Assembly: GCA_945905295.1 (NCBI GenBank)
Contig: CAMDPX010000055.1
Span: 1-34,928 of the forward strand
Length of the DNA: 34,928 bases
Direction: 5' to 3'
Source: Planctomyces sp. SH-PL62
GTDB lineage: Bacteria; Planctomycetota; Planctomycetia; Planctomycetales; Planctomycetaceae
The notes beneath the pieces are model-generated. The model ran no database searches. It saw nothing but the letters and a program-made list of their open reading frames with translations, and had not been told where the DNA came from. The translations under genes were made by a program, and so were the position numbers. Each line of letters starts with the position of its first letter. Position 1 is the first letter of the stretch. Positions 5,207 to 8,200 of this stretch are shown here, piece by piece.

Positions 5207-8200
5207 ATGACGCGCGCGACCTGCGATTCACGATCAACATTTCGCGTGGCTGTTGGCACGCTGTTGTTGGCCATGCTTGTTCTGGGCTGGACCGCGATCG
5301 GCCAAGAGAAGCCGGCTGCTCCCGGCGCTGTCACTCCGAACGCTGCGATTGACGAAGCAGCGTTCAAAGAACACATACAGCCGCTGCTGAAGACATTTTG
5401 TGTGCGTTGCCACAACGCGGATGAGATGGAGTCAGGGATTCGAGTCGATCAACTCACAGCCTCGCTGGAGGAGAAACAGATTCCTCTTTGGAAAGGAATT
5501 CAAAAGCAGGTATCGGACGGTGCCATGCCGCCGGAAGACGAACCTCAGCCAACGGCCGAGCAACGGAAGTCGTTCGATGGATGGATCACGCGGGCGATCA
5601 CAGCGGCCCGATCTCGACCTTCGCCGAAGAATGGTTCCGTGCGACGACTCACGGTCTCGCAATACCGGAACACGCTCAGAGATCTGTTGGGACTGGAAGA
5701 GGATCTCACCGATGCACTTCCTCCGGATGGCATCTCCAAAGATGGCTTCGCCAATAACGGGCAGTCGTTGCTGCTATTGCCGTTGCAGGTGGAGACCTAC
5801 TTCGACATCGCCGAGAAAGCCCTCGACCTGTGCATCGTCGATGAGGACTCAAAGCCGGTGATTCAAAACTTCCGCATGGATTTCGGAGCCTCGATCAATC
5901 CGCAGCCCTGTCCCGACAAGCTGGTGCTTGGCGCGCTGAACATGCTGTTGAACAACGCGGACTTCATGGTGACCGAACTGAAGCCCACGAAGCCGTTCGA
6001 CTTTCAACCGTTCGCGATGAAGACCCAGCACGAGTTCATTGAAGGCTACGTCGGCAACGACACGATCCGGGCTTGGAAGAAATTCGACAGTATCTATCAC
6101 TCGGTCTTCGCCTGCGTGCGCGGGACGCCGGGGTATCCAAAAGGGGAACCTCATCAGGCCGTGCCCGGCGGTTTGCTATTGCGGCCGGCGATTCCGAGCC
6201 CGGAGATCTTTGGGCAGTCGAACACCTACGGGCCGATGGCGAATTTCAAAATCTCATTACGCGAGCTGCCGGAGCAGGGAAACTTCCGCGTCACGGTGAA
6301 GGCCGCACGCTATGACGATGGGCTGCTGCTGGATGCTGGTGCCCCCGTAGCCACGCTCGCCAAGAGCGTGGGAGAAACGCGTGAAGCCCCACGCTCTGGT
6401 GAGCGTGGCTACGGCTCAGCGATCGTTGCCGACTTGTCGACCTCACCCGAAGCAACGATCAACATTCCGCACGACGGCATCTATCAAGTCGATGTGCATT
6501 GTGCGACGGGCAAGTCGCAGGGGCTGTTGTCATTGGATTTGGGCGAGCGGCGCTTTGCGGGGCAGCTCATGGAACGGGAGGGCGAGGCTCCCGCCGAGCC
6601 GCGAACGAACAAAGATGGCTCGGCGGGAGCCTCGCCCTCCCGGATGACAGCCTTCATGCTCGTGCGATTGCCGGCCGGTGAGCTGAAGCTTGCGGCGAAG
6701 TACGGAGACAACTCTCGACTGCGTCGCATCGCCTTCAGTCGATTGAACGACGACAGCGAGCTGGCTCGACGGTTCAAGACGTTCGAGCAACGCTCGCCGT
6801 CGCTGGGTGTGTATCTCGGCCTGCGTCGCGACTGCGGCAGCACGTTGACGCAGGTCGGTGCGCCGCGGCCCGTCTCGAATCGCGAACTTCAAGAGTTTGT
6901 CTTCGAGGGAGCGATCAACGATTTCCCGACTCCCGACGTGGAGAAGGACAACGTCAATTATCTGGCGGGCATTCGCGAGATCGGGGTCCGCAGCGAGTAC
7001 ACCGACGGACGCGACATGCCTCGGCTGCTCGTGCGATCGGTCGAGTTCGAGGGACCGTTTTATGAGTCATGGCCACCGGCCACTCATCGCAACATCTTCA
7101 TCGAGTCGCCCCACAAACCCGTGGAGCACGTTTCCAACGTGCTCAAAGAAAATGAAAAGCGGCACGTTGAAAACGTGCCCCACTACGCTCAAGACGTGAT
7201 CCGCTCGTTCGCTACGCGAGCCTTTCGCCGACCGGTGACGGCTTCTGAATTGGAAACGTACTTCGGAGTCTGGAAAAAATCGTTTGCTGAGAAGCGGGAG
7301 GGCGAGGCTCCCGCCGAGCCGCAATCCGGAAAAGACGGCTCGGCGGGAGCCTCGCCCTCCCGAAATCCGGGTTTCCGCCAAAGCATCAAGGACACGCTGC
7401 TCGTCGTGCTGACGTCGCCTCAGTTCTTGTTCTTGATCGAGAACAGCAGCAGCCCGGCCGCAGAAGATCTCGATCCCTACGAACTGGCTTCAAAGCTGTC
7501 GTACTTCCTGTGGAACGCGCCACCGGACCAACGGCTGCTCGACCTCGCCGCGAAGAACTCGCTGCATCAATCGCTGGATGCGGAGATCGAGCGAATGATT
7601 CGCGACCCGCGTTTCGGACAGTTCATCAGCGAATTCGCGTCGCAGTGGTTGAGCCTCGACAAGTTCGATGTCGTGGCGGTCGATGCGAAGCGATACCAGA
7701 AGCTCACCCGCGATACGAAGACACAATTGAGGCAAGAGCCGATCCAGTTTCTGCGATATCTGATCGAACAAAATTTGCCGTTGCGAAACGTGGTTCAATC
7801 GGACTTCCTCGTCGCCAACGAAGTCACCGCGAGCTACTACAACCTCGCCGATCGCACGGAAAACGGATTCCGGTTCGTCCCGATCAAGCACGAGAACGAA
7901 AACCTGGGAGGCGTGCTGACTCAGGCCGGCATTCTCGCGGGGCTGTCCGATGGCCGAGAATCCAACCCCATCAAACGCGGAGCTTGGCTGGCCAGAAAGA
8001 TCATCGCCGAACCCCCCGATGATCCGCCGCCAAACGTGCCGCAGCTCAAGGAGGATGACGGCGCGAAGCTGACTCTTCGTGAGAGGCTGGAACGACACCG
8101 CAACCAGAAAGGCTGCGTGAAATGTCACACCGGCATCGACCCGTGGGGCATTCCGTTCGAGACGTTCGATGCCGGCGGCCTGTTCAAGAAAGATTCTGCC

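Follow-up and report, generated by a model that had tools for sequence, protein, structure and literature searches.

Palindromic doublets in and around a PSCyt1/PSD-domain gene

We analysed a 34,928-nt stretch of planctomycete DNA (positions 1-34928, the window), in which one long gene encodes a protein with six Pfam domains, PSCyt1, PSD3, PSD5, PSD4, PSCyt3 and PSD2 (DUF1587/1595/1592/1588/1585), and is 81-86% identical to its orthologues within the genus. Four palindromic doublets are read in frame within this gene, two belonging to a family that we call A and one each to families B and C (Table 1).

Table 1. Coordinates of the host gene and of palindromic doublets read through in genes of the window
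Feature	Position	Strand	Description
Host gene ORF	5207..8461	+	1084 aa; single open frame; planctomycete PSCyt1/PSD-domain protein, DUF1592 group
Family B doublet	6345..6414	+	GTAG-tagged, GTAGCCACGCTCGCCAAGAGCGTGG; in frame within the host gene
Family A doublet, copy 1	6576..6641	+	66 nt; in frame; 22-residue peptide; replaces ancestral linker
Left arm, copy 1	6576..6600	+	GGGAGGGCGAGGCTCCCGCCGAGCC
Spacer, copy 1	6601..6616		16 nt, gcgaacgaacaaagat
Right arm, copy 1	6617..6641	-	Reverse complement of left arm
Family C doublet	7118..7186	+	GTGG-tagged, GTGGAGCACGTTTCCAACGTGCTC; in frame within the host gene
Family A doublet, copy 2	7296..7361	+	66 nt; in frame; 22-residue peptide
Left arm, copy 2	7296..7320	+	25 nt, identical to copy 1 arm GGGAGGGCGAGGCTCCCGCCGAGCC
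Spacer, copy 2	7321..7336		16 nt, gcaatccggaaaagac
Right arm, copy 2	7337..7361	-	25 nt, reverse complement of GGGAGGGCGAGGCTCCCGCCGAGCC
Family B doublet	19294..19381	+	Read through in ORF 17774-21277
Family F doublet	22853..22930	-	TGAGCGGCACGGCGCTAGCCGCCGGT; read through in ORF 21399-24815 (-)

A previous reading of the letters and open reading frames (the sequence-only reading) had described the family A copies as two 66-nt doublets with four identical 25-nt arms, each of 22 codons and in the same frame, and both the coordinates and the translation agreed with this description. The arms are perfectly complementary within each doublet and identical in all four cases, with complementarity reaching 26 nt in copy 1 (6575-6642) and 27 nt in copy 2 (7295-7362), and the two copies are translated in the same phase as (R)EGEAPAEP-x5-GSAGASPSR. 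The accompanying statement that the spacers share only a few bases was too strong, as 9 of the 16 bases are alike without gaps, and the family B and C doublets of this ORF had been overlooked. Folded whole as single-stranded DNA, the doublets gave hairpin energies of -37.9 and -40.4 kcal/mol, whereas shuffled sequences averaged -14 and -16 (z ~ -10), and the arm occurred 93 times at two or fewer mismatches in the window's genome, where a reversed-pattern control occurred 0 times; because of these two results, both 66-nt doublets are far beyond chance. An Rfam search of the window returned 0 matches. The AlphaFold prediction for the host protein, with a mean pLDDT of 35, was discarded, and the coil that it shows at both inserts was not taken as evidence.

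Palindromic doublets are also frequent elsewhere in the window, where about 17 of them, representing ten or more families, occur within 35 kb; three genes contain the six that are read through, and the remainder lie between genes or at gene ends. A doublet family with arms ATTCGTCGTCTCCTT..ATTCGTCGGG has two non-coding copies, at 1654-1728 and 17647-17715. The doublets at 21282-21384 and 30090-30217 begin with GGGGTCGGGAGTC and GGGGTCAGGTC, and correspond to the inverted repeats on either side of the Y1_Tnp genes at two other loci (L084 and L083). The family B arm, in contrast to that of family A, has a GTAG head and a compensated stem, and among the family B arms of the window's genome the compensated stem changes CCACGTTC/GAACGTGG, CCGCGTTC/GAACGCGG and CCACGCTC/GAGCGTGG point to several putative recognition variants in one genome.

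Empty sites and re-used loops

We compared the host gene with orthologues from sister and family genomes and from 80 named MAGs or isolates. The copy 2 region measures 126 nt in the window and 54 nt at the empty site, a net gain of 72 nt, and these 54 nt are uninterrupted in every one of the approximately 70 orthologues from beyond the genus, which reach as far as records labelled Acidobacteria. The same site is empty inside the genus in G002, G004, G009 and L138 (SFADKGDFRQS-like), while five genus genomes carry an unrelated doublet there (AGCACGACGCGCCAGCGAGTGGTC..) and G007 carries a third, GTAG-headed doublet. Copy 1 replaced about 42 nt of linker that is present in G010, G006 and G002, for a net gain of 24 nt relative to G010. 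The sequence-only reading had proposed that a mobile element became protein sequence, and the empty site in the orthologues outside the genus bears this out; it had also named, as an observation that would speak against insertion, the peptide occurring at the same place in orthologues lacking the repeat, and no such orthologue was seen to carry it, the genus members being either empty or occupied by other families. These comparisons show that both family A doublets of the window are true insertions.

Another locus (L031), in a gene that reads as P-type-ATPase-like, gave a similar picture, in that the empty site in G006 differs by a 61-nt element and one base, without duplication. At this site the sister genome G005 (L209, G005:C42:1-331) has GGGAG where G006 has A and the window's genome has the element, and this GGGAG may be a deletion scar or an assembly error. 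Direct repeats flanking all of the A copies are 0-2 nt only, and we found neither a target-site duplication nor a target consensus at these copies apart from a weak bias towards C or T ahead of the arm, which is partly due to the larger repeat unit in G005 described below.

In order to evaluate whether other families occupy the same places, we compared four sites of the window gene and seven further family A loci with the sister genomes. By plain count, at 7 or more of these 11 sites at least one sister species had another palindromic family at the same loop. The family B site of the window gene (6345-6414) carries the unrelated family F in G010, and the family C site (7118-7186) carries an unrelated GTAG family in G002, G001 and L138 and is empty in most other genus members. 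Across the orthologues of this gene in the genus, doublets of about seven families occur at five places only, and none were found in orthologues beyond the genus and near relatives. We read this pattern as the apparent re-use of a few permissive protein loops by unrelated palindromic families. A broader proposal, which we put forward tentatively and think rather doubtful, is that many unrelated RAYT-type hairpin families keep inserting into few loops and so form a continuing source of in-frame peptides, possibly with insertion biased to the coding-compatible phase. If that were true, RAYT-mobilised DNA would be a mutational engine for protein loops and not extragenic clutter. REP and REPIN elements have been described as mainly extragenic.

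Family A across genomes and its putative transposase

The window's genome (8.6 Mb in 476 contigs, 97% complete) contains, among its 93 arms, 58 perfect copies, 29 with one mismatch and 6 with two, and widening the threshold to three mismatches added none. Of the loci retrieved from it, 43 were complete doublets measuring 61-109 nt, about 5 were truncated at contig ends and about 3 were singlets, so that doublets outnumber singlets and two inverted repeats form the unit, as is required of a REPIN. The genomes that we searched are mostly draft MAGs or representatives, and their contigs often terminate in A arms, and assembly was therefore disturbed by the hairpins. Of 40 relatives, 15 carried the arm, among them members of other genera and of a different family (G038), and across the phylum its distribution was patchy (6 of 294 genomes); the sister genome G005 had 139 arms, the most of any genome seen. 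The elements L295-L300, from the different family (G038), have identical A arms and a different spacer, mostly a shared 19-nt gggcgtggcggtgaaaacc, and are mostly 69 nt long. That distant families share identical arms but differ in their spacers suggests either horizontal spread or strong constraint. One unusual element in G005 (L287, G005:C234:10145-10318) is 174 nt long, and within its spacer a portion of the arm and centre is repeated in tandem (ggctctcggcgtgattcacgcacc).

Arms and spacers differed markedly in conservation. Among the 43 copies in the window's genome, arms were 96-97% identical and spacers 48-49%, with shuffled spacers at 44%. In nine orthologous pairs, from which self pairs were left out and which are partly non-independent, arms differed at 28 of 450 positions (6%), flanks at about 12% and spacers at 55 of 250 (22%); the arms are therefore held and the centre is free. 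The sequence-only reading had offered three causes for identical arms with diverged spacers, and these divergences, together with the absence of arms with three mismatches, favour constraint on the arms or their homogenisation. The arms may be held by transposase recognition, conversion or re-seeding. Any correction between the arms of one element would be imperfect, because the two arms are not identical in some elements (L012, L031).

A candidate transposase was found in G005, where a 159-aa ORF (667-1146 of L276, G005:C143) lies between A arms, with a complete doublet and then a half doublet after it. This ORF matched the REP-associated tyrosine transposase model NF047646 REP_Tyr_transpos at E=1.8e-15 and 57 bits (the curated cut-off is 80) and Y1_Tnp weakly (E 0.04), and its best solved relative was TnpA_REP (PDB 4er8). 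It keeps the motifs PDHIH (HIH) and Y-TQN-NP, the Y of the latter aligning with what we take to be the catalytic tyrosine of E. coli TnpA_REP. We therefore interpret it as a predicted intact RAYT gene bounded by family A arms. The ORF upstream (L276 9-608) enters the left A arm and gains a 12-residue C-terminus from it, and the RAYT unit therefore sits at the end of another gene.

This A RAYT was found in only one of the 40 relatives searched, G005, which is also the genome richest in arms, and a search of the window's genome with it found no cognate RAYT. The window's genome has 13 Y1_Tnp genes, several of which are flanked by other doublet families and none of which is bounded by A; the pair flanking the Y1_Tnp gene of L084 (GGGGTCGGGAGTCTTTTTCAGGCCGCC) is of the same family as the window doublet at 21282-21384. 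An A element about 1 kb from a Y1_Tnp gene on contig C45 was rejected as a sign of a cognate, as it sits within the next ORF and was taken as coincidence, and filtering this genome by motif for intact Y1 ORFs, which gave 1 match only, was left out of the results.

The non-coding copies in G005 have spacers with 76% mean identity, and L265, L271 and L278 share an identical spacer, the flanks of L271 being unrelated. These copies indicate recent copying of family A in G005, without the same in the window's genome; the suggestion of recent copying is thus upheld for the sister genome and not for the genome in which it was made. Most of the recent G005 copies are inside a larger repeated unit (CCAATTGAAAACC..), and part of the recent amplification may be that of this larger unit. 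In L265, L278, L279 and others, A elements are nested in a larger palindromic repeat, CCAATTGAAAACCGCGCC(T/A)TTGTTC..GAGCGCAG..TTGG, and the larger unit with nested A seems to have been amplified as a composite.

Reading frame, alternatives and relation to known repeats

We called a copy coding from an open frame and a codon-usage score derived from the window's long ORFs, requiring coding signal on both sides. By this measure 25 of 43 scored copies in the window's genome (58%) and 11 of 32 in G005 were read through in coding ORFs. Of these, 22 of 25 and 11 of 11, respectively, had the 5' arm in the EGEAPAEP phase, or 33 of 36 jointly, and the probability of at least so many at one third per phase is ~4e-13; the count is valid for either coding strand because the element is symmetric. 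Among the translations seen, no stop occurred in any frame of the A arm, and every phase was therefore possible a priori. Most simply, the frame bias would reflect the purging of copies that would add basic peptides. In a sample of the GTAG family B, picked for near-perfect arms and thus possibly younger, 4 of 22 doublets were inside genes. On the strength of codon statistics and open frames, these coding copies of family A would be translated into host proteins.

We consider it very probable that family A is a REPIN-like mobile doublet mobilised by a RAYT, as this best explains the observations as a whole. Each element consists of a pair of identical 25-nt arms in inverted orientation on either side of a variable centre, and as single-stranded DNA it forms one long hairpin. 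From what is known of the protein family, a Y1 HUH tyrosine transposase of RAYT type would recognise the arms and move or copy the hairpin without target-site duplication. A copy that lands in a gene would survive selection if its net length change keeps the frame, if its centre is free of stops in this frame and if its arms yield mainly the acidic Pro/Ala peptide EGEAPAEP, often followed by GSAGASPS, within a permissive loop. As few loops would tolerate this, unrelated palindromic families would re-use the same ones in sister species, while centres drift to near randomness and arms stay conserved. The copies in the window's genome look like resident descendants because no cognate RAYT was found there.

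An alternative that we judge unlikely is that the inserts have been domesticated, a 16-residue segment or an mRNA hairpin being kept as useful in a linker, in secretion or in translation pausing. The single frame of 33 of 36 coding copies, the conservation of arms in old shared copies, the presence of four doublets in one gene and the strong hairpin are all consistent with this. However, purging of harmful frames gives the same frame bias, close species are empty or have unrelated peptides at the same loops, and the elements are spread over many different ORFs. The arms might instead owe their spread or their identity to gene conversion or to template switching in hairpins and not to a transposase, which would fit their 97% identity against 48% for spacers among the 43 copies, the absence of arms with three mismatches and the failure to find a cognate RAYT in the window's genome. 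We think this quite unlikely, as new sites that are empty in sisters need insertion, the arms of one element can differ, and G005 has a RAYT gene with A arms on both sides.

The spacer of copy 2 resembles a family D spacer at the same site, which raised the idea that an incoming family replaces the arms at an occupied site and retains the spacer. This likeness was non-significant, since scores as high arose in 8 of 148 comparisons with other A spacers and in 12.5% of the shuffles, and the flanking bases differ between the A and D inserts; arm swapping at the copy 2 site was rejected for want of a significant likeness, and we regard such replacement as very improbable. An ancestral low-complexity protein repeat, palindromic in its codons by chance, would account for the in-frame reading only. 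It has next to no probability, being refuted by the empty sites in about 70 orthologues, and it is also contradicted by arms in non-coding copies and in other phases and by identical 25-nt arms in other planctomycete families. Empty sites, alternative occupants and a cognate transposase are visible together in sister genomes, and a comparative test becomes possible of how mobile hairpins become protein and which loops accept new peptides.

Rickettsia palindromic elements (RPE) are palindromic repeats found in frame in many unrelated proteins. Family A resembles them in being in frame in unrelated genes and in having empty sites in orthologues, and differs from them in sequence, in the absence of a CGTC head and in the RAYT link found for it. 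The likeness to RPE drawn by the sequence-only reading thus applies to behaviour and not to mechanism, for which REPINs and RAYTs are nearer, as A arms flank a RAYT in G005. The CGTC tag is reported for RPE-4 and RPE-6 (PMC3733652). With REPINs (PMC3116915), in which the arms are conserved and the spacer less so, family A shares the inverted doublet unit, the hairpin, conserved arms with variable spacers, a RAYT flanked by the same repeat and the lack of a visible target-site duplication; however, more than half of the scored copies in the window's genome are in genes, whereas the SBW25 REPINs were analysed in extragenic space. The arm is not a classical GTAG REP, as it starts with (C)GGGAGG and lacks the GTAG head, and a single 25-nt arm has no fold of its own (z = 0.41), unlike the self-folding single REP unit.

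Family A is closest to the dimers of tyrosine-transposase-linked terminal inverted repeats (TIRs) described by Di Nocera (2013, PMC3733652), with which it shares a tyrosine transposase flanked by non-GTAG inverted repeats and dispersed dimers, although it lacks the GGGGWSAS motif reported for several, but not all, TIR families and lies inside genes to a large extent. REP dimers located within ORFs are described from Opitutus, Thauera and others, where they encode 20-30 aa, and different REPs occur at about the same recB site in two Xanthomonas species (PMC3733652); family A differs from these in being 58% genic, in its one dominant frame and in site re-use at many loci. A literature search that was largely without subscription journals found no report of such elements in planctomycetes, and we regard the kind of element as already known and the coding load and loop re-use as new. 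Starts of GGGGTC, similar to GGGGWSAS, are present in the window doublets at 21282-21384 and 30090-30217 and in the repeats flanking the Y1_Tnp genes of L083 and L084.
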